Origin: an uncultured Glaciecola sp.
GTDB taxonomy: Bacteria > Pseudomonadota > Gammaproteobacteria > Enterobacterales > Alteromonadaceae
Reading direction: 5' to 3'
Length of the DNA stretch: 64,000 nt
Assembly: GCA_905479945.1 (NCBI GenBank)
Contig: CAJQOP010000048.1
Location: 1-64,000, forward strand
Position 1 is the first letter of the stretch. Each line of letters opens with the position of its first letter. Below the pieces are notes generated by a model. That model ran no database searches. It was not told the DNA's origin and was given only the letters and a program-made list of their open reading frames with translations. Position numbers and translations under genes: made by a program. Of the stretch, positions 3,403 through 55,817 are shown piece after piece.

Positions 3403-3834
3403 TTATTTAATTTTCATTAAATTATCAAGAGAGAGCTTGCCAGCGCCCCATACTGCAACTAATACCATTAAAGCTCCCCACAAAATATGCTCGTTCAATG
3501 CAGCTGCTGGCATATCTTCGAAACTAACCACAGCAATATAGTTAACGATGAAAAGACCAATTGCAGCTTTTCTGCCCAACAAACCTATTACCAGCAAAAT
3601 CGGCAGTACTATTTCTCCAAAGGTAGCCAGGTAAGCCGCAACTTCGAAATTCAGCACCGGAACAGCATATTCATATTCAAACAATAATAAGGTTGATTCC
3701 CAATCACGCAGCTTAGTCAAACCCGCTTTAAAAAATACCCACGCCACATAGAACCGAGCAGCAAGCAGAAGTAGAGGTTGAAGAAGGTCTAGTTTGCCTA
3801 AAATAGCGTTATAAAAATTTATTAGCTTAGTCAT
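3403..3834 (-). CDS. DoxX family membrane protein
   Basis: 143 aa, multi-TM, DoxX-like N-terminus (ARFYVAWVFFKAGLTKL); last gene of the cassette. Confidence 0.85.
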   Translation of the reverse strand: MTKLINFYNAILGKLDLLQPLLLLAARFYVAWVFFKAGLTKLRDWESTLLLFEYEYAVPVLNFEVAAYLATFGEIVLPILLVIGLLGRKAAIGLFIVNYIAVVSFEDMPAAALNEHILWGALMVLVAVWGAGKLSLDNLMKIK

Positions 3835-3883
3835 ATGTATCTCTCTTTTGTTGATTGTGTGCAGGCTTTTTTTAGGTACTTTT

Positions 3884-4681
3884 TTAAACTACTGCAAAAA
3901 TTAATTTATTTGATATCGCTTTCGTTAACCATTCACTTAAGTCAATATTTTGCGAACTTATCGTCTCAATGACCGTGTTTACAGACGCTTTTTCACTTAG
4001 CTTTTGAATTACTAATGCTTCAGCTTCTGATACAAATTCAAATTGTGCTTTGTACTCTGCACGCCACAAAACAAGAGACCGAGGAGATTCAGTATTTATT
4101 GCATTATTTATTGATTTTGTGATGATTTTTAATAATTCTTGCCGAGCTCCTGCTCCCTCAGCGGTCTGAAGATGAGGATCATGTATTAATTGGTACAAAT
4201 CGACAATAGGAAACCAAGAGTCAAGCACTTGCAAGCCCGGAGCTGAATCAAAGATAAGTGTCGACGTGTCACCTGTTTCCATTAATGCAAATGACGCAGC
4301 TTCGAAGGCTTTGTCTTTTTCACGTTGACTGCAATGAATAGCCCAATCCAATTCAGCTACTTCACTCAAAAATGGAAATGCTTCTAATTCTTCTTGGTCT
4401 TCAATAAACTCAGGGAGAGACTGTCCGTACTCAGCCCAATCAAAACTGACTTTAGACTCATGCTGCAGCAGCTTTCTGGATAGCACTCGAAAAGTGTCTA
4501 TGCCGATAAATCCTTCAACCGTAGGGTAAGTGATGGATAGCGCTCTTATGCCGTTTTCTATGAAGTTGTTTGAATAAATATTAAGCGCTGTTCGAGTTGC
4601 CTGATCATGCGTTTCTTCAGGCGCAACTTTGCCAAATATAGACTTAACTAGTTGCGCTTGATATCGCTGGTTATAGTTCAC
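3884..4681 (-). CDS. DUF2063 family putative DNA-binding-domain protein (BufC-like RiPP partner)
   Basis: 265 aa; NIYSNNFIENGIRALSITYPTVEGFIG is typical of DUF2063; 4-nt overlap with the DUF692 gene. Confidence 0.85.
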   Translation of the reverse strand: MNYNQRYQAQLVKSIFGKVAPEETHDQATRTALNIYSNNFIENGIRALSITYPTVEGFIGIDTFRVLSRKLLQHESKVSFDWAEYGQSLPEFIEDQEELEAFPFLSEVAELDWAIHCSQREKDKAFEAASFALMETGDTSTLIFDSAPGLQVLDSWFPIVDLYQLIHDPHLQTAEGAGARQELLKIITKSINNAINTESPRSLVLWRAEYKAQFEFVSEAEALVIQKLSEKASVNTVIETISSQNIDLSEWLTKAISNKLIFAVV

Positions 4682-5628
4682 AATTTTGCGTTCAATGATA
4701 TGCGGCGAGCCTTATCGGCTTCAGCCAGTAAAACAGACCATTCTGGAATTTGTGTATCCCACTCAACCAGTGTGGGTGTATTGGGAAATTTGTGTAATGC
4801 AAATTGATATAAATCCCAACACTGATCAGACACGGGTGCACCATGATCATCGATAATAAAGCTGGGCTGACCTAAGGATGAATTATCACTTTGATCTGTA
4901 TAACCCGCTAAGTGAATTTCACCTACTGCGCTAGCTGGCAACGTGCTTATGCGCTGTTTTACCGCTTCAAATGAAATGGCCCCAAGCGGAATGGTCCCAG
5001 GCGGATCATAAACGCTTTTATTCAACTCATTAATAATCAAATTATTCAAATCGAGCAATAGTCCACATCCCGATTGTTTGCACATGGCAACTAAAAACTC
5101 AAACTCAGTCATTTGATCCTGGTTTTCCGCCGCCAGTTGACTGGGCGATATATAAGCTGACAGATTTTCAATTAATAGCGGACGCTGAATACTGTCTTGC
5201 ACATGTTGAATATGCGCAACAATATTGTTCAATGAATCCAAATTATAAGGAATTGGTAATAAGTCGCCGCTGTGAAGGATATTTCCATCCACTTCTGCGC
5301 GATTGAAACAAAGATGCTCTGAAACTAAAATGGGTTGTGTACTTTTTACTAGCTCGGTAAATTGTTGCAGAACATTCTTAGGTGTTGCCAAGACAGAGCC
5401 CAATCCCAGTGAAGTGCCGTGCACACTTAATGGATAAGCTTCTGCAATCTCGTGAATGAGAGAGCGACTTGCGCCACCAGAAGCAAAGAAATTTTCGGCG
5501 TGAACTTCGACAAAATCAACATTTTGTTTTGCACCACCTAATACTTCTGCATAGTGGGAATGACGAAGCCCAACACCTATTAAGGTATTGGGCTTCGTAT
5601 TGGCTGTGTTATTTAGTGAATGGTTCAC
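4678..5628 (-). CDS. DUF692 family MNIO (multinuclear non-haem iron oxidase), BufB-like
   Basis: 316 aa; GVGLRHSHYAEVL, VDFVEVHAENFF, VHGTSLGLGS, SEHLCF, LLLDLNN, EIHLAGY are DUF692 signatures; GTG start. Confidence 0.92.
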   Translation of the reverse strand: MNHSLNNTANTKPNTLIGVGLRHSHYAEVLGGAKQNVDFVEVHAENFFASGGASRSLIHEIAEAYPLSVHGTSLGLGSVLATPKNVLQQFTELVKSTQPILVSEHLCFNRAEVDGNILHSGDLLPIPYNLDSLNNIVAHIQHVQDSIQRPLLIENLSAYISPSQLAAENQDQMTEFEFLVAMCKQSGCGLLLDLNNLIINELNKSVYDPPGTIPLGAISFEAVKQRISTLPASAVGEIHLAGYTDQSDNSSLGQPSFIIDDHGAPVSDQCWDLYQFALHKFPNTPTLVEWDTQIPEWSVLLAEADKARRISLNAKL

Positions 5629-25545: not shown

Positions 25546-27672
25546 CTATTGTGCTGTTTTAGCGAGTTTTGTAAGTGTATTAAAAACGTCTTTATCAGCC
25601 AGCAGCGCGATTTTCTCTCTATTACTCATCCACTCTAGCGCTTCATCCTGATGATGCGCGTCATTTATTTTGTATGCTAAGCTCATTTTATCAACCGGTG
25701 GTTCACCGCGAGCTTGTATCGATACTTTATCCGCGGCATTAAAGTGCACATCACGTAGTTTTTGACTAGAAATGAGTGCTTTGATATCAATCGTTTTAAG
25801 TTGCTTAGAGAGCTTTTGAGAAAATTTGTCTCTATCTTTTATCATTAGGATATCAGTCACTTCTTCGGGAATATTTAAGATACCGAGATATCTTAGTATC
25901 TTAGCTAAACTTCTACTGCCACTTAAGGCTGATAACGGAATTGAGAACATGAGCCCTACTAAGGTGGGAGAAAGCCAAATTAGCAGCATAGGCGAGTAAC
26001 GAGACAGCACTGCTGCCATCACTAATCCAATGACAGTATGCCAGAAATGTCGTCGACACAAAGCCAACCATGGTGTTCCAGTGTATTGACGTTGTTGGGT
26101 ATTCCAACCTGAATCGCGCCCTCTAAAAATGTCAATGATGTGCTTGACGTGTATCAACATGAAAATTGGCGCATACAGAACGGAGAAGAATGTTTCTACT
26201 AACATTCCCAGCGTCATTCTAATAATACCGAGCGGTTTTCTTAATGGAGAATGAAAAAAGGCTCGGATTAAACCAAGCACCTTTGGAACGATTAGAATTA
26301 CCATAGTAAAAATAAATAAACTCACCATTCGTTCAGAGTCAAACACCGGCCAGTTTGGGAACAAGGTCAGTTCAGTAGTAAAATATTCAACGTCAACGTA
26401 GTGGATTTGAATAGCCATTGCAATGCCGATCAATATTAATGCAAACCAAAATGGCGATGCCATATAGCCCATAACACCTGTTAGCATATGAAACCTGTTT
26501 GGCCATCGTAAACCTCTCGCTTTTAATACTGCCAAGTGCTGAATATTTCCCTGTGCCCAGCGCCGATCACGCACCGCAACATCTGACAGGCTCGGAGGGC
26601 TTTCTTCCCAAGACCCTTTTAGCGCTGGCAACATTTTGACCGACCACCCTGCTCTGCGCATCAATGCGGCTTCAACAAAGTCGTGAGATAATATGTCGCC
26701 AGAAAATGGCTTTACGCCGCCAAGTGTTGGTAAGCCAGCGGACTCGGCAAAGGCGCTTACTCTTATAATTGCGTTGTGGCCCCAATAGTTGCCGTCATTG
26801 CTTTGCCACGCTGTTATTCCTCTTGCAACAATAGGTCCATATATCGTGCCCGCGAACTGTTGCAAGCGAGCAAAAAGCGTATCGCCTCTGTATAAACAAG
26901 GTAAGGTTTGAATAATTCCGCTGTTTTCGTCACTGGCCATTTCCTGCATCAAAGTGAGTAAGGTGCTTGCAGACAACAAGCTATCAGCATCGAGCAAAAT
27001 CATGTAGTCATAACGCCCGCCCCAACGACAGACAAATTCGTGCACATTGCCTGCTTTTTTCGCAGTATTGTTAAAACGACGGCGATACCATACTTTGATA
27101 TCTGGCGATAAAGCTTCTTTTAATTTTTGAAACGCTGCGGTTTCTTTGACCCAAAGCTCGGGCTTATTGGAATCTGAAATAATGAATATGTCAAATTGTC
27201 CATTTAATCCTTTTTCAGTGAGCTCTTTACCCATGGCATAAAGCGCCCCAAATGCTTCGCTGGTATCTTCATTATAAACTGGCATCAACAGCACTGTTTT
27301 CTTTGTAGATATGTCCATAGCAGAAACGTCGCGAGATTTACCCGAAAAAATAAAACCAGCGACAGCTGCGCAAGCAGCCAAAGCAATCCACACAAACGTG
27401 ATACAAAACAATCCAACCATTATCCATTGCAATACGGTGGTGTCAGCTTGAGATATTGTCAGTATCATTTGATTGGTTGCGTAAGTCGTCAATGCAATTG
27501 CGCCACCAAACGTAATAAGCCTGGCTATAAATGGGATCCAGCCTTGCCAAAAATGCTTCACCTTCGGTTTCAATGAGAAATCCTGAGCTGGCATATCTAA
27601 AGTCATTTCGCTTGGCGTAGCTTTATTCATTGTGCTTATCGCGTCCATCTGTAAAGCCATGTCTCGCCCCAC
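25546..27672 (-). CDS. mdoH: Glucans biosynthesis glucosyltransferase MdoH (OpgH)
   Basis: ILLDADSLLSASTLL, GGVKPFSGDILSHDFVEAALMRRAGW, RDRRWAQGNIQH; downstream of mdoG. Confidence 0.95.
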   Translation of the reverse strand: MGRDMALQMDAISTMNKATPSEMTLDMPAQDFSLKPKVKHFWQGWIPFIARLITFGGAIALTTYATNQMILTISQADTTVLQWIMVGLFCITFVWIALAACAAVAGFIFSGKSRDVSAMDISTKKTVLLMPVYNEDTSEAFGALYAMGKELTEKGLNGQFDIFIISDSNKPELWVKETAAFQKLKEALSPDIKVWYRRRFNNTAKKAGNVHEFVCRWGGRYDYMILLDADSLLSASTLLTLMQEMASDENSGIIQTLPCLYRGDTLFARLQQFAGTIYGPIVARGITAWQSNDGNYWGHNAIIRVSAFAESAGLPTLGGVKPFSGDILSHDFVEAALMRRAGWSVKMLPALKGSWEESPPSLSDVAVRDRRWAQGNIQHLAVLKARGLRWPNRFHMLTGVMGYMASPFWFALILIGIAMAIQIHYVDVEYFTTELTLFPNWPVFDSERMVSLFIFTMVILIVPKVLGLIRAFFHSPLRKPLGIIRMTLGMLVETFFSVLYAPIFMLIHVKHIIDIFRGRDSGWNTQQRQYTGTPWLALCRRHFWHTVIGLVMAAVLSRYSPMLLIWLSPTLVGLMFSIPLSALSGSRSLAKILRYLGILNIPEEVTDILMIKDRDKFSQKLSKQLKTIDIKALISSQKLRDVHFNAADKVSIQARGEPPVDKMSLAYKINDAHHQDEALEWMSNREKIALLADKDVFNTLTKLAKTAQ

Positions 27673-48727: not shown

Positions 48728-49165
48728 CTAACTTTCGTGCATGCGCACTGCGAGCACATCTTGTTTGACGCCGTGTAGCACCGCATTTGCAGTTGATCCA
48801 AGAAGAATTTTAATGCCGCTTCTGCCATGAGTGCCAATTACAATAAGATCAGCTTCATTTTCATTTGCTATTTGCTTTATTTCATCAGGAATATCACCGG
48901 TTTTAACATGAACATTTTTATTGTTAATGCCAAATTTGTCTGCAATTTCCTCTAATCGTTTTGTGGCAATACCTACGGCTTCAAAATCACTTATTGAATT
49001 GTATTCAGCTCCGTATAAAAATGGTTGGATATAGATTACAGGCATGGATACATAAACTAAACTGAGGTCGTCAGGTGATTGACATACCGATAGCGCCCGC
49101 TTGATCACGTTCTCATGCTCGGCATTAAAATCTATTGCGACTATAATTTTTTTGTAATAGCTCAT
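48728..49165 (-). CDS. Universal stress protein (UspA family)
   Basis: IIVAIDFNAEHENVIKRAL...ADLIVIGTHGRSGIKILLGSTANAVLH. Confidence 0.92.
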   Translation of the reverse strand: MSYYKKIIVAIDFNAEHENVIKRALSVCQSPDDLSLVYVSMPVIYIQPFLYGAEYNSISDFEAVGIATKRLEEIADKFGINNKNVHVKTGDIPDEIKQIANENEADLIVIGTHGRSGIKILLGSTANAVLHGVKQDVLAVRMHES

Positions 49166-49235
49166 GATTCACACTCCGTCATTACTTGCTTTAATTTTTT
49201 CGTGTAGTTACTTTAACAAATCAACATTTCAAGAT

Positions 49236-49251
49236 TTTGACCTAAGTCAAA
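49236..49251. promoter_or_regulatory. FNR-type box upstream of uspA-like gene
   Basis: TTTGAC-CTAA-GTCAAA, perfect 6-bp arms. Confidence 0.65.
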
Positions 49252-49278
49252 GATAGCTTAAGCCACGACTTTAAAAGA

Positions 49279-50685
49279 CTACTGAAGTAAAGAGCCCTTT
49301 ACTTTAATCTGGGGCGAATCACCGCTCTCTCGCACACCAATAGTGAAATTTTCATGCAGTACTCCTGCTTGAAACATAGTCGCGCGGTTGGCAGGCTGAA
49401 TTGAGACATACTTAGCGCTTTTTGCGGGCAGGACATCAAGCATTTTTTGCGTCACTACTACAATGCCATCGTTGCTAACTCGAAAACCTCGTTTAAGGTC
49501 TTCTCTTAGATCTACTCCTATTTTGAAGTTATCCGGAATGCAACAATCATGGTCGATGATCGCACGTTGGATAAGTGCATTATTTCCAATTGTTACGTTT
49601 GGCAATAAAATCGATTCGGTAATATACGCGTTGTTTTTGATTTTTGTATTTTCGAAAACCAAAGAGCTCCTTATTTGGCAAGGATAAATCTCACAGCCTG
49701 TTGATAACAATGAGTTTATAGTGTTGCCATTTGCATTGTATTCATCATTAACAAATTTTACCGGGGGTAAGCAACTTGGTGCGCTCCAAATTGGCCATTC
49801 AGAATCATTAAGACTTATTGGAGGTTTATTACCCAATAGCGCGACATTTGCTTTCCAATAAGCATCTATTGTTCCGACATCTCGCCAATACGGCGCATCG
49901 TTTGAATCTAGTGAACAAAAACGAAAGGCATACAACTTGTTATCTGAGATCAGTTTTGGAATGATGTCCTTGCCGAAATCATGTTCCGACTTGAGGTCTA
50001 AAGCGTCTTGTTGCAGGAGTCTAATTAGAATATCAGTATTGAACACATAATTTCCCATAGATGCTAAAACGTGGCTAGGCTTATCAATTAGGCCTTTGGG
50101 ACTAGTTGGTTTTTCTTCAAATGATATTATTTGGTCATCGCTGTTAACATTGACTACACCAAATTGCCCAGCAGCTTTATGAATTGGCACTTCAATGCAG
50201 GATACCGTCAAGTCGGCTCCACTTTGAACATGTTGCTCGAGAATATTACGATAGTCCATTTTGTAAATATGATCGCCAGAAAGAATCAAAACATATTTAG
50301 GCATCGCGGACTTTATGAACTCAATATTCTGGAATAAAGAATCAGCCGTTCCTCTATACCAATCTTTCTTAGAATGTTGGGAGGCAGGCATTATCTCGAG
50401 AAACTCGCCAAAATGTTGATTAAACTTCGCCCATCCAGTTACAAGGTGGTGAATCAAACTTTGTGCCTTATATTGCGTCAACACGCCAATTTTTTTGAAT
50501 CCAGAGTTTACGCAATTAGAGAGCGGAAAATCGATAATTCGGTAGCCACCACCAAATTCAAGAACGGGTTTTGCACGTGACTCTGTTAGCTCGTGCAAGC
50601 GACTCCCCTGACCTCCTGCTAAAAGCATAACTAGCGTGTCATTTGTGAGCCGATTTAGGTTTGTACTATTTGAAGATGTCATAGT
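49279..50685 (-). CDS. glgC: Glucose-1-phosphate adenylyltransferase
   Basis: LAGGQGSRLHELTESRAKPVLEFGGGYRIIDFPLSNCVNSG; start MTSSNST preferred (track ORF to 50730). Confidence 0.95.
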   Translation of the reverse strand, partial: TMTSSNSTNLNRLTNDTLVMLLAGGQGSRLHELTESRAKPVLEFGGGYRIIDFPLSNCVNSGFKKIGVLTQYKAQSLIHHLVTGWAKFNQHFGEFLEIMPASQHSKKDWYRGTADSLFQNIEFIKSAMPKYVLILSGDHIYKMDYRNILEQHVQSGADLTVSCIEVPIHKAAGQFGVVNVNSDDQIISFEEKPTSPKGLIDKPSHVLASMGNYVFNTDILIRLLQQDALDLKSEHDFGKDIIPKLISDNKLYAFRFCSLDSNDAPYWRDVGTIDAYWKANVALLGNKPPISLNDSEWPIWSAPSCLPPVKFVNDEYNANGNTINSLLSTGCEIYPCQIRSSLVFENTKIKNNAYITESILLPNVTIGNNALIQRAIIDHDCCIPDNFKIGVDLREDLKRGFRVSNDGIVVVTQKMLDVLPAKSAKYVSIQPANRATMFQAGVLHENFTIGVRESGDSPQIKVKGSLLQ

Positions 50686-50846
50686 GGACCCCTCTGATGT
50701 ATTTAAATAACAACTCAGACTCTGCAACAAAAAATAGATTTTTTAGCCTGTGATAAACACGTATTCGATAAATTGAATTTGCTGCTGAAAGTAGCTAATT
50801 TAAATTTGCTAGACTTACTATTAGACATGACTGACAGAATTAAAAC

Positions 50847-50860
50847 TTGATCGAGGTCAA
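50847..50860. promoter_or_regulatory. FNR-type box upstream of glgC
   Basis: TTGAT-CGAG-GTCAA. Confidence 0.55.
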
Positions 50861-50871
50861 CTAAGGCAAGA

Positions 50872-51327
50872 CTAGCAAGCAGCGCCATCTAAACAAATTC
50901 TAACCGCTAGTACATCTTGCTTTGCATTGTTAAGCACCGAACTAGCAGTCGCTCCTAAAAGAGCACTAAACCCTTTGCGCTTTTGTGTACCAATAATGAT
51001 CAGGTCAGCAGCAATATCAATCGCTAAACGATGGATTTCTTCTGCTATATTCCCAATGGGCAAGTAAAATTGGCCTAGCGGAAGCGCCATATCCGAAGCA
51101 ATTTCGCCTAGCCTTCTTTTGGCTTGACCTTGTATTTCAGCAACATAGTCGCTGCCAACACAGCTAATATAAGGCTGAAAGTAAATTTTGGGTAAGGTCA
51201 CAAAGACCAAGTGGATTTGACTTGGATTTGCAGCAATACGCAATGCCCTTTGAAGCAGAAGGTCGTATTCGGAATAAACATCTATAGCAATAAGAATGCG
51301 TTGATAATTCATAATCTCTCGCTCCAA
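50872..51327 (-). CDS. Universal stress protein (UspA family)
   Basis: ILIAIDVYSEYDLLLQRALRI...ADLIIIGTQKRKGFSALLGATASSVL. Confidence 0.9.
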   Translation of the reverse strand: MEREIMNYQRILIAIDVYSEYDLLLQRALRIAANPSQIHLVFVTLPKIYFQPYISCVGSDYVAEIQGQAKRRLGEIASDMALPLGQFYLPIGNIAEEIHRLAIDIAADLIIIGTQKRKGFSALLGATASSVLNNAKQDVLAVRICLDGAAC

Positions 51328-51444
51328 AAGGATTACACTGGATACTTAGACTTATTTAATTACTTTATTAAACCCTGAAGAGTCACTACTCACACTGTTT
51401 CACACTCTATGATTCTTAGTTAATCAAGATATTCCGAATCCGTT

Positions 51445-51458
51445 TTGACGAATATCAA
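51445..51458. promoter_or_regulatory. FNR-type box upstream of second uspA-like gene
   Basis: TTGAC-GAAT-ATCAA. Confidence 0.6.
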
Positions 51459-51507
51459 GTTTCTGTGACTTTTAGTAGAATTCACAGGAAATCTATAAAC
51501 AAATCTC

Positions 51508-52329
51508 TTAATGACAGACGGCTTCTTTTTTAGGGCTTTTCTCAATTCTCGACACATGCGAACTGAGGCCATTTGGTGCACATCTATTTAAGGTTTCAAA
51601 GTTTAGAATGGTCAAAGAGCGGTGTTTTACATCAACAATTCCCCGTTGCTGGAAATTGGATAATATTCGGCTAACTGTTTCTATAGCCATACCTAAATAG
51701 TTAGCAATCTCGGTGCGCGACATTGATAGTAAAAGATCTTTTGCGGATAAACCTCGTTCTGCAAACTGCATTGATAAATCAAGAATAAACCTCGCCAACC
51801 TTTGCTCACTTGAACACATACTTAAATACATCATCATTGACATGTCGCATACCATGGCGTGACTAATTGATTGTAATAAACAATCGCGGAAATCATCGCT
51901 GGTTTTAACTAATCCATTTATATCTGATTTTTTTAAGAAATAAACGCTACTTGTTTCTAAAAAATGTAGATTTTGAGCGTGTGAATGCGCATCAAATCCG
52001 TCGATCCCCAATAAGTCGCCGGGATAAAAGAACTTAGTTATATGCTCTTCTCCCCCAATTGTAGTAATAAATGACTTTGCTGAACCAGAACGTAATATAA
52101 AAATGCCTTCAAACGTATCTCCGACTGAATAGAGAGCTTGTTTTTTATGAAAAATACGATGAGAAGTGCGTGCTTGATATGAGTTCGTCTCTGGGATATT
52201 GTTTACACATAGATCTAGAAATTTTCTTGATGAGCTATGATTATTAAGTGGTAATGATATTGATTTCATATATGCAAGCTCCTTAATAGTGCCGATTATG
52301 GTTCGATACATTGTAAAAGTATCTATCAC
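51508..52329 (-). CDS. Crp/Fnr-family regulator, FNR-like but lacking the N-terminal Fe-S cysteine cluster
   Basis: cNMP-binding-like fold (FILRSGSAKSFITTIGGEEHITKFFYPGDLLGIDGF), HTH MSRTEIANYLGMAIETVSRILSNFQQ. Confidence 0.9.
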   Translation of the reverse strand: MIDTFTMYRTIIGTIKELAYMKSISLPLNNHSSSRKFLDLCVNNIPETNSYQARTSHRIFHKKQALYSVGDTFEGIFILRSGSAKSFITTIGGEEHITKFFYPGDLLGIDGFDAHSHAQNLHFLETSSVYFLKKSDINGLVKTSDDFRDCLLQSISHAMVCDMSMMMYLSMCSSEQRLARFILDLSMQFAERGLSAKDLLLSMSRTEIANYLGMAIETVSRILSNFQQRGIVDVKHRSLTILNFETLNRCAPNGLSSHVSRIEKSPKKEAVCH

Positions 52330-52443
52330 CTGTGATTACAACATAGAGTAAATTTTAGCTTTTAAGGTAAGCTGCCTCAATCAGAGCAATCACGTAAATC
52401 ATTGCGGAAAATACCTATAAAGCAGATGAATTAGGATGTTTAA

Positions 52444-53637
52444 ATGGATAAAAACACTACCGAAACATCAACTCAGCCAATGTCCAGCAAGGATATTAGC
52501 GATGAGGCTATAAGAGATGCTAACGCAAGATTGATCTCGATTTTGAATGCAGCCGTTGATGCTTTAGTTATTATTGATCAACACGGTAAAATCGAACTTG
52601 TAAACGCAGCGACAGAAATGATGTTTTTATATACCCGTGAGGAATTAATTGGTCAAAATGTTAATTTACTAATGCCTTCGCACTTTAAGGATAAGCATAA
52701 CCAATACATTTCATCTTACATAGCGAGCAGAAAACCAAAGGTTATTGGTAAAGGCAGAATGCTGCAAGCAACGAAATCCGATGGTTCAGAATTTCCGGTA
52801 TTTATTAGTGTTGGTGAAGTCCAAGCGTCTAGCCACACGCAGTTTGTTGGGATTATTCGTGACATATCACTAGAAGAAAAAAGTCGAATAGAAATACAAG
52901 AGATTAGAGACAAATTAGCCCACGTAAGCGGCTTAAACTCTATGGGTGAATTAGCTGCAGGGATTGCGCATGAAATAAACCAACCACTTTCTGCTATTTC
53001 AAGTTATGCGCAAGCTTCCAAGCGCATGATACTCTCACCTGAGTCTGACAATAAAGAGTTGGTCATAAGCGCCCTCGATAAAATTTGTAACCAAGCCATT
53101 CGTGCTAACGAGGTGATTAACCACCTAAGATCATTGGTTAAAAAGCGTGTGGCACAGCGTCAGAACGTACTATTAAATACTCTAATTAATGAAACCGTCA
53201 GTTTGGCGAAAGTAGATACCCGTATTTTGGACCATGACATAATTCTTGATTTAACCAGCAGCAAGCCACCGGAGTTGAATGTTGATCCTATACAAATTCA
53301 ACAGGTGCTTTTGAATTTTATCCGTAATGCAATTGACGCAATGGAAGATTCTAAAGGTATGCCTCTGACAATTAGAAGCCATTGGTTATCTGATGAGGTA
53401 GTCGAGGTCTCGGTTATCGATAGCGGACATGGAATGGATGCTAACATGAGTGACAACGTTTTTACGCCATTCTTCACGACAAAAGAAACTGGCATGGGAA
53501 TGGGCTTAGCGATAAGTCAAACTATCATACATGCCCATGGGGGGCGTATTTACTGCAAGCCGAACGTGCCAAAAGGCTCTATATTTTCATTTAGCTTAAG
53601 TATCGCCGCATCCTCACAAAAAAACAGTGAGCAATAA
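52444..53637 (+). CDS. PAS-domain sensor histidine kinase, FixL-like
   Basis: FixL-type PAS (YTREELIGQNVNLLMPSHFKDKHNQYISSYI), H-box AAGIAHEINQPLSAISSYA, HATPase GMGMGLAISQTIIHAHGG. Confidence 0.9.
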   Translation: MDKNTTETSTQPMSSKDISDEAIRDANARLISILNAAVDALVIIDQHGKIELVNAATEMMFLYTREELIGQNVNLLMPSHFKDKHNQYISSYIASRKPKVIGKGRMLQATKSDGSEFPVFISVGEVQASSHTQFVGIIRDISLEEKSRIEIQEIRDKLAHVSGLNSMGELAAGIAHEINQPLSAISSYAQASKRMILSPESDNKELVISALDKICNQAIRANEVINHLRSLVKKRVAQRQNVLLNTLINETVSLAKVDTRILDHDIILDLTSSKPPELNVDPIQIQQVLLNFIRNAIDAMEDSKGMPLTIRSHWLSDEVVEVSVIDSGHGMDANMSDNVFTPFFTTKETGMGMGLAISQTIIHAHGGRIYCKPNVPKGSIFSFSLSIAASSQKNSEQ

Positions 53638-54289
53638 CATGGAAGACAAAAGCATGGAGACCTTAAATGTTAGTCCTGTAGTGTATGTAGTGGACGACGA
53701 CGAAGCTGTTTTAGATTCAGTCGGTTTGTTGCTATCGAGCATAGGAATAGTCAATTCATGTTACATAAGTGCGCAAGCTTTTTTACAGGCTTATTCGAAA
53801 GAGGATTTTAATCGACATCATGGATGTATTTTGCTGGATATTCGGATGCCTCATATTAGTGGAATAGAATGTCAGCACCGGCTTGACGAAATGGATTGCC
53901 AACTGCCAATTATCTTTGTGACTGGTCACGCTGATGTGCCAACTGCAGTAGAAACCATGAAAAATGGTGCCTTTGACTTTATGCAAAAACCTTATAGAGA
54001 GCAGGTGCTAATAGAGTCCATTCAAAAAGCATTATTGCTTAATAAAAGAAACCAAGAGCGGCTCGCTCAAATAAATATGACCAAAGCTAAGTTGGCTAAA
54101 CTAACAACTCGAGAATCTCAAATATTACAATTAATTTTAAGAGGCAAGGCAAATAAAGTGATTGCTATAGAGCTAAGCCTCAGTCAAAGAACTATAGAAA
54201 TCCACAGAGCGCATGTGATGGAAAAAATGGAAGCTAAATCATTAGCTGAACTGATTAAAGTTGTAGTTGATACTCAGCCTTCTAATTAA
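53627..54289 (+). CDS. FixJ-family response regulator
   Basis: VVYVVDDDEAVLDSVGLLL, VTGHADVPTAVETMKNGAFDFMQKP, LuxR HTH; overlaps the kinase. Confidence 0.93.
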   Translation: MSNNMEDKSMETLNVSPVVYVVDDDEAVLDSVGLLLSSIGIVNSCYISAQAFLQAYSKEDFNRHHGCILLDIRMPHISGIECQHRLDEMDCQLPIIFVTGHADVPTAVETMKNGAFDFMQKPYREQVLIESIQKALLLNKRNQERLAQINMTKAKLAKLTTRESQILQLILRGKANKVIAIELSLSQRTIEIHRAHVMEKMEAKSLAELIKVVVDTQPSN

Positions 54290-54349
54290 TCCCCAATATT
54301 TATTTGCTAATAAGTCATTAACTTCTATCGATAAGCATTCAAACCTATT

Positions 54350-54363
54350 TTGATCTGCATCAA
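54350..54363. promoter_or_regulatory. FNR-type box upstream of cytochrome c gene
   Basis: TTGAT-CTGC-ATCAA, exact FNR consensus arms. Confidence 0.7.
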
Positions 54364-54448
54364 AGACCTGAGGCCTAAAAGTATTACTCTAATATTAGTT
54401 CGGTATCAGCCATAATTTTATCTGGCAATTAACAAGATATAAGAGGAA

Positions 54449-54913
54449 ATGCAAATGAACAAATATTATAGTTTTTTAATGATAGTTGTAATCATCTCAC
54501 TTAGCGCTTGTGATGCTGGTCGAGATTCGCCAAGAGGGTTTAGTTTGCCTAAAGGAGATGAAGTCAAAGGAAAGCAAGTTTTCATAAAGCATCAGTGTCT
54601 TTCTTGTCATCTAATAGCAGATGTCGAAGACAATGAAATTACTCGTGAATTAGAAGAGCCTATTCAGCTAGGACGAAAAACCGCAAAAGTAATTACCTAT
54701 GCCGAATTGGTTACTAGCATCATTAATCCTTCACATAAAATATCAAGAGGCTATTTGGTCAACTCAGTTGATGAGTCTGGAAATTCAATAATGCGAAATT
54801 ATAACGATGTTATGACCGTGGCTGAGCTAGTCGACCTTGTCACTTATTTGCAGCCTCATTTCAAAGTCACACCAGTTGAGTATTCTCCTTATCGGAACTA
54901 TTACGTGCATTAA
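54449..54913 (+). CDS. c-type cytochrome lipoprotein
   Basis: Lipobox LSACD, haem motif CLSCH. Confidence 0.88.
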   Translation: MQMNKYYSFLMIVVIISLSACDAGRDSPRGFSLPKGDEVKGKQVFIKHQCLSCHLIADVEDNEITRELEEPIQLGRKTAKVITYAELVTSIINPSHKISRGYLVNSVDESGNSIMRNYNDVMTVAELVDLVTYLQPHFKVTPVEYSPYRNYYVH

Positions 54914-55051
54914 TATGGTCGATGGCCGTGACAACATAATTTTGCAACAAAACGAAAGAATGGCACAGACCAATAAACAAAAAACCTAATTACCTAAAAT
55001 GGATATAGAGCCTAGTATGAATACAAAACCTAAAAACCAAGGATAATTAAT

Positions 55052-55303
55052 ATGCAATTGGAAAAACACACCTTAATAAACGATTTCCCGGATCATCAAC
55101 ATACAATTCGCCATCTAAAAATGCACGATACGCATTTTGCGAGGTTGTTTAATAACTATCATGAAGTTGAAAGCGAAGTACATCAGATTGAGGAAAACAA
55201 CTCTCCAGTTAAAGATGACTATTTGGAGTCACTCAAGAAACAACGTGTTCATCTAAAGGATGAGCTATTTAGTATGATTCAAAAAACTGAGAACGCACTT
55301 TAG
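55052..55303 (+). CDS. YdcH family (DUF465) protein
   Basis: 83 aa; HDTHFARLFNNYHEVESEVHQIEE...DDYLESLKKQRVHLKDEL. Confidence 0.85.
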   Translation: MQLEKHTLINDFPDHQHTIRHLKMHDTHFARLFNNYHEVESEVHQIEENNSPVKDDYLESLKKQRVHLKDELFSMIQKTENAL

Positions 55304-55340
55304 CCCTCAACTTTAATATCTTATAAAAGGAGCAGCACGC

Positions 55341-55817
55341 ATGAAGAAATTAATAATTTCTTTATCGAAAATAATGTTAATTGTGGCTCCTTGTATTTTA
55401 CTCATCGCTGGTTGCAGCAGTCAATTTGCCGCTTCGATGCGCAAAGTAACTTATCCACCGGATTTTGACTATGTTGAGCAAGCTAAGCTTAGATCGGATA
55501 TGGGAAGACTAGCACAGCAAATGCGCCTTTTAGACCAAGCTCTCATTAAACAATACGATCAAGATGACCATCCAACAGTTGACGCTGAAAGCCAACGTCA
55601 GAAAGTCCTATCCGCATTGCAGAGTATGGGAACCATAGCCTCTAAATTAAAAGCGGGAGATGCCGGCGCGAACCATCCGTTTATGCAAGATTATATGCAG
55701 GACTTTGTAGCCAAAATTGACAAAGCGCGTGTGGCTGCATCTTTTGAGCAACCTCGCTATTACTTTGCAGGTAAGATTTCTGGGGGCTGCACAAGTTGCC
55801 ACAAAGTAAATAGGTAA
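55341..55817 (+). CDS. Cytochrome c'-like four-helix haem protein
   Basis: Helical protein with C-terminal CTSCHKVNR haem-binding motif, lipoprotein signal. Confidence 0.75.
   Translation: MKKLIISLSKIMLIVAPCILLIAGCSSQFAASMRKVTYPPDFDYVEQAKLRSDMGRLAQQMRLLDQALIKQYDQDDHPTVDAESQRQKVLSALQSMGTIASKLKAGDAGANHPFMQDYMQDFVAKIDKARVAASFEQPRYYFAGKISGGCTSCHKVNR

Follow-up and report, generated by a model that had tools for sequence, protein, structure and literature searches.

Low-oxygen control by FixL, FixJ and FixK is known mainly from Alphaproteobacteria and Burkholderia. The alphaproteobacterial systems of Sinorhizobium, Bradyrhizobium and Caulobacter combine a haem-PAS histidine kinase (FixL), a response regulator with receiver (REC) and LuxR-type domains (FixJ), and a Crp/FNR-type activator without the full set of cysteines (FixK) (PMC4999443). 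Counterparts of all three lie in a gene island at 48728-55817 of the DNA considered here, which is positions 1-64,000 of contig CAJQOP010000048.1 (hereafter the window; assembly GCA_905479945.1) from an uncultured Glaciecola sp. (Alteromonadaceae). We read the island as part of a FixLJ-FixK-type low-oxygen cascade in Alteromonadaceae, whose FNR-like regulator would read FNR-type boxes (TTGAY-N4-RTCAA) in front of its target genes, and give this reading a probability of about 0.74.

The likeness to the alphaproteobacterial systems extends to the FNR-type target boxes and to the position of a FixJ-type element upstream of the activator gene: the S. meliloti FixJ footprint on fixK runs from -69 to -44, as cited in PMC4999443, and the element here lies at about -72 to -48. 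The two differ in the host, which is gammaproteobacterial here; in the activator, here an FNR paralogue from within the family that the tree sets far apart from Caulobacterales FixK; and in the box-bearing targets, here stress, glycogen and cytochrome genes. In Burkholderia, fixK-lacZ expression rises about 5-fold at low oxygen through FixLJ, and the low-oxygen-activated (lxa) products include six universal stress proteins (Usp), a cytochrome c, a heat-shock protein and a flavin/nitro-compound reductase (PMC5234846; PMC6127331). The lxa set resembles the products of the window island and of two other box-rich islands of this genome, on contigs C43 and C110; Burkholderia belongs to the Betaproteobacteria, FixLJ and FixK lie apart there, and a staged cysteine loss such as is seen here is not reported in the text consulted. 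The canonical FNR/Anr regulon has the same box, class II geometry and ccoN and ompW as targets, whereas the regulator here has one of the four cluster cysteines.

In the DosR regulon of Mycobacterium tuberculosis, haem-sensor kinases drive many Usp genes under hypoxia, and DosR is a LuxR-type regulator acting directly. To our knowledge that regulon has no FNR-type intermediate, whereas one would stand between the haem sensor and the Usp genes here. Ten Usp genes are counted in the DosR regulon by PMC6127331, and uspA belongs to the predicted core FNR regulon of Alphaproteobacteria (PMC2908626).

A FixK-type paralogue of FNR

Pfam assigns the island genes to Usp, ADP-glucose pyrophosphorylase, Usp, a Crp/FNR regulator, a PAS histidine kinase, a REC-LuxR response regulator and a c-type cytochrome. 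An earlier note on this DNA had placed an FNR-like regulator and a FixLJ-like pair amid the boxes, and Pfam and alignments bear this out; the note had not noticed that the regulator has lost three cluster ligands or that a FixJ-type element stands at its gene.

The regulator (51508-52269, minus strand; 253 residues) has the FNR-family fold. It matches Aliivibrio FNR, which we take to be the A. fischeri protein, at 116 bits against 54 bits for B. japonicum FixK2, and among NCBIfam models it scores 156 bits with Fnr against 67 with Caulobacter FixK. The recognition helix is kept as in FNR (ETVSR, of the E..SR type that reads TTGAT half-sites), and the four cluster positions, aligned to the genome's own FNR, hold S, R, C and Y. 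The regulator thus lacks the four-cysteine set of FNR and agrees with FixK in its functional sense, that of a member of the FNR/FixK group without a cluster ligand, at least one of the four cysteines being missing (PMC2908626). In a tree, the FNR-like group (16 rows, support 97/91) stands beside the canonical FNRs of the family and far from two Phenylobacterium FixK-like proteins; no grouping with alphaproteobacterial FixK appears, with an outgroup of only these two rows. By alignment and tree, then, the regulator is a FixK-type paralogue of the family's own FNR.

The cluster ligands are lost to different degrees among its relatives: Paraglaciecola-type members keep CEHCALSRNC and the fourth cysteine, one genus (g1) and one further genome (G059) keep two ligands, and the protein of the window keeps one. 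With several long branches in the group and so small an outgroup, the tree gives no firm count of the losses. We lean somewhat towards an independent gammaproteobacterial origin of this FixK-type regulator, in which an FNR duplicate with all four cysteines was placed under FixJ control by an operator (Paraglaciecola-type), then lost two (g1, G059) and finally three (this genome). With the DNA target unchanged throughout, the haem kinase would have taken over oxygen sensing from the iron-sulfur cluster; the four-cysteine stage possibly gates oxygen twice. Genome G059 also has a very divergent second FNR-like copy (L170:8619-9374) with all four cysteines and without the FixJ-like element, lying between box-rich stress genes and genes that correspond to the C43 island.

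The FixL- and FixJ-like pair

The FixL-like protein (52444-53637, plus strand; 397 residues, H-box AHEINQPL) is a soluble histidine kinase whose nearest match is B. japonicum FixL (103 bits over its single PAS domain), and it lacks the region before position 115 of the NCBIfam FixL profile. Its H85 and R105 align with H200 and R220 of B. japonicum FixL, which we take to be the haem-ligand histidine and the oxygen-contacting arginine; R206 is not conserved. As aligned, the kinase has the proximal histidine and oxygen-contacting arginine of a haem-binding PAS domain. The FixJ-like protein (53639-54289, plus strand) joins REC to a LuxR/GerE domain, as FixJ does, and its best PDB matches are FixJ and StyR.

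Close FixL orthologues (E<1e-100) and regulator orthologues (43-57% identity) occur in exactly the same 13 of the 200 family genomes surveyed, spread over four genera. Among 369 genomes sampled from the class, no FixL orthologue is found at E<=1e-85 beyond this genome, and the distribution is therefore narrow; plasmid matches to FixL are alphaproteobacterial, at about 40%. In several relatives, a receiver-only protein follows fixJ (L230:1721-2128, L093:8959-9366, L160:11649-12026), and none stands beside fixJ in the window; this protein could act on FixL as a feedback inhibitor, in the manner of FixT.

A candidate FixJ operator

Between the FixL-like gene and the regulator gene lies a 25-bp element, TAGGTATTTTCCGCAATGATTTACG (52393-52417, minus strand, read towards the regulator gene), which is a candidate FixJ operator. 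It occurs once in the genome; the next-best sites carry two mismatches and are at or below the number found with a reversed control, that is, at chance level. A profile built without the window site gives that site 34.8 bits and the next best 16.4 (0.45 Mb scanned). The element lies upstream of the regulator, with 0-2 mismatches, in all 13 genomes that have the regulator, and it keeps this place even at L161, L164 and L168, where FixLJ lies elsewhere. A conserved -10 lies 35-36 nt past the element (in the window the predicted TAAAAT at 52352-52357, minus strand, at 35 nt), which gives the element its position of about -72 to -48.

FixJ operators are described as having no common consensus (PMC4999443). 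Only two placements of the S. meliloti FixJ site TAAGTAATTTCCCTTA on the element score positive, the one in register and one at offset 7 on the reverse strand (the element is partly palindromic), and shuffles equal the in-register score of the site in 0.09% of cases (p 0.0009). The motifs GTACGTAG and GTAAGTAG from systematic evolution of ligands by exponential enrichment (SELEX) fit the element no better than shuffles do, and a profile search of Phenylobacterium fixLJ loci gives nothing above noise. Matches to the element in about 35 other family genomes, considered as a second class of FixJ site, were rejected: of six loci that were read, five proved to be conserved fis codons (GINRGTLR) seen from the reverse strand and one (G079, contig C51) did not, and the rest were assigned by sequence similarity.

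FNR-type boxes in the island and in the genome

Boxes had been claimed upstream of uspA-1, glgC, uspA-2 and the cytochrome c gene, and each of the four does lie between genes, ahead of the one named for it. In the window, exact matches to TTGAYNNNNRTCAA lie at 49237-49250 (TTGACTTAGGTCAA), 50847-50860 (TTGACCTCGATCAA) and 51445-51458 (TTGATATTCGTCAA), all on the minus strand, and at 54350-54363 on the plus strand (TTGATCTGCATCAA); the only others, at 26144 and 35773, are within coding sequence and were set aside as chance matches. The first box serves UspA-1 (48728-49165, minus strand; 145 residues, Pfam Usp 2e-25), with a -10 hexamer TAAAGT at 49210-49215. The second stands before GlgC, glucose-1-phosphate adenylyltransferase (49279-50682, minus strand; above the NCBIfam glgC cut-off, an upstream TTG at 50730 being also open as a start), with TCTAAT at 50820-50825. 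The third precedes UspA-2 (50872-51312, minus strand; about 146 residues, Pfam Usp 1e-16), with a hexamer at 51418-51423, and the fourth a c-type cytochrome lipoprotein (54449-54913, plus strand; 154 residues, CLSCH, Pfam Cytochrom_C) that has a paralogue on C43, with TACTCT at 54385-54390 or, alternatively, TAATAT at 26 nt. The four hexamers given by position are each 21 nt past their box.

Class II FNR promoters have their box centred at -41.5, which for a length of 14 bp puts the -10 at 21-22 nt downstream. When the 60 nt downstream of each intergenic box are read towards its gene, a -10-like hexamer stands at 21-22 nt past the box in 17/34 cases in this genome and 20/45 in relatives, against roughly 2-3% at each other offset. 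Taken together, the intergenic boxes are enriched for this spacing and so fit class II geometry.

The 4.03-Mb assembly has 79 exact sites against 22 for the reversed pattern (a 3.6-fold excess). Surroundings were read for 77 of these from the stretches around them, and 32 are intergenic, as called by a simple gene caller, against 14.6% non-coding DNA. An equal motif density elsewhere in the genome would have spoken against a special island, as the earlier note recognized; the genome-wide scan finds the island about 40-fold denser (four boxes in 5.1 kb against one per 51 kb), and random placement of 79 sites puts four within 5.1 kb anywhere with P about 0.011. The island is not unique: C43 has seven boxes in 13.2 kb, at genes for a VTT-domain protein, a second copy of the island cytochrome, a CBS protein, a nitroreductase, groEL and a glycine-zipper lipoprotein, and C110 has five in 13.9 kb, at a CBS protein, an Hsp20-type protein and others. 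Boxes also precede ccoN, a second Usp gene beside an alternative ATP synthase operon and a gene for an OmpW-like protein (names read from sequence). Given these clusters and genes, the boxes are a genome-wide regulon with a local concentration. Of the single local regulon proposed earlier, the grouping of boxes at Usp, glgC and cytochrome genes around the FNR-like regulator and FixLJ-like pair stands; its confinement to the island does not, the same boxes preceding about 30 intergenic starts genome-wide and a four-cysteine FNR being encoded on contig C66.

Comparative genomics of the cluster, which the earlier note had proposed, finds the same genes with boxes in front, in shuffled order, in 18-kb stretches of other Alteromonadaceae. 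An exact box lies within 300 bp upstream of 30/49 cytochrome, 9/10 Usp1, 4/8 Usp2 and 4/8 GlgC homologues, compared with 3/17 for the FNR-like gene, 1/11 for FixL and 0/11 for FixJ; the reversed motif has no exact match upstream of the same homologues. With counts high at the cytochrome, Usp and GlgC genes and near nil at FixL and FixJ, the box by this measure travels with its target genes and not with the two-component pair.

Alternative explanations

Chance palindromes in AT-rich intergenic DNA would account for the boxes only against heavy odds: about 22 genome-wide matches are expected from the reversed control, and most intragenic ones are probably chance, but the excess over the whole genome, the preference for intergenic DNA, the constant distance to the -10 and the recurrence in relatives together refute a chance origin for the boxes as a class. 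A more serious question is which protein reads them. The genome's canonical FNR, encoded on C66 next to ccoN-type genes, has all four cysteines (CxxCx5C and the fourth) and a recognition helix, ETISR, that we class with that of the paralogue; it could be the main reader of the four boxes, with a minor part for the paralogue. (In a relative, L061, canonical fnr at 3778-4515 is followed directly by a gene for a tandem Usp protein of about 300 residues at 4674-5576.) Box excess over control appears in nearly all family genomes, with no clean correlation across genera that would let it mark the regulator, and 16/33 cytochrome homologues in genomes without the FNR-like gene bear a box, so that the canonical FNR must, on these counts, use the cytochrome box too. 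A main role for it at the four boxes is nevertheless unlikely, since the boxes cluster round the paralogue and the FixLJ genes, genomes with the paralogue have the cytochrome box more often (14/16 loci; Fisher p 0.012), and the paralogue's FNR-type helix is intact.

Alternatively, the paralogue might be a DNR-like or redox regulator responding to nitric oxide, haem or a thiol signal, with FixLJ as its neighbour by chance. Such a protein could likewise combine an FNR-type effector domain with a missing FNR cluster, near-identical sites are read by the FNR, FixK and DNR groups (PMC2908626), and the paralogue retains several cysteines; its exact co-occurrence with FixL in 13/13 genomes, the FixJ-like operator before its gene and the presence of all four cluster ligands in close relatives make this quite improbable.

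The FixLJ-FixK-type cascade itself faces several difficulties. It is read as a whole from sequence, and the canonical FNR is predicted to recognise the same site as the regulator, so single boxes are not assignable to either factor. The sensory domain of the regulator could bind something else. Box excess over control is clear in genera g1 and g24 and not in g10 and g5, the S. meliloti FixJ site agrees with the 25-bp element at only 11/16 positions, and the uspA-2 hexamer TTAACT is weak. Both partners of the pair fall below their NCBIfam equivalog cut-offs, FixL with 347.6 against 850 bits (a rhizobial model) and FixJ with 215.6 against 255 bits, FixJ still being the best family; we therefore claim more firmly that the pair works like FixLJ than that it is FixLJ.

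Proposed mechanism

As oxygen drops, ligand would be lost from the haem PAS domain of the FixL-like kinase, which would then phosphorylate the FixJ-like regulator. Phosphorylated FixJ would bind the 25-bp element, whose midpoint lies about 60 bp ahead of the predicted regulator start, and switch on the regulator gene; the regulator in turn would bind boxes centred at -41.5 and act as a class II factor. Its targets would be the two Usp proteins, glucose-1-phosphate adenylyltransferase and cytochrome c in the island, and chaperones, a CBS protein, a nitroreductase and ccoN elsewhere, the canonical FNR sharing at least part of the sites. With three of four cluster ligands lost, the regulator should not sense oxygen itself, and by analogy it probably needs no signal of its own; FixK2 does not sense oxygen directly (PMC2908626). 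The genes, the box/-10 geometry, the conservation of box and element, the co-occurrence of FixL and regulator and the cysteine loss were read from the DNA and its translations, and oxygen sensing, phosphotransfer, FixJ binding, activation and the division of labour with FNR are what the families involved lead us to expect.

Neighbouring genes and further box-bearing loci

Downstream of the cytochrome gene, and possibly in the same unit, is a gene for a small DUF465 (YdcH-like) protein (55052-55303, plus strand; Pfam 4e-16). It is followed by a lipoprotein gene with a C-terminal CTSCH haem motif (55341-55817, plus strand), which matches no Pfam family and has no exact box of its own. A second glgC copy (C58:7059-8252) is 52% identical to that of the island, and since two copies exist the island glgC may be a low-oxygen isozyme.

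The C43 island (L001:1-19901, C43:38000-57900) has an apparently truncated cytochrome copy and a degP-like protease adjoining groEL. An F-type ATP synthase operon, apparently an alternative one, that adjoins a Usp gene also has boxes in front (L003, contig C40:1-7388; L157 and L163 in relatives), which suggests a low-oxygen ATPase. In the relatives L161 (10172) and L162 (5424), boxes are also present next to genes that by eye encode D-lactate dehydrogenase, which ties the regulon to fermentation.

Implications

A literature search finds no paper joining FixL, FixJ and Alteromonas, and titles and abstracts joining FixLJ, FixK and Gammaproteobacteria report no such system. As far as the literature was searched, a FixLJ-FixK type in Alteromonadaceae, its operator, the origin of its activator from an FNR of the same family and the stepwise loss of cysteines are new. 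A defined candidate FixJ operator is now at hand. If the reading is true, the staged loss in relatives preserves in nature the steps by which a FixK-type regulator can evolve, and orthologous regulators under one operator with four, two or one ligands make the change from FNR to FixK directly testable. The targets (Usp proteins, glycogen precursor synthesis, chaperones, cytochrome c and ccoN) suggest survival and respiration at low oxygen, and the cascade, if it operates, predicts a low-oxygen programme of Usp, glycogen, chaperone and cytochrome genes in marine Alteromonadaceae.

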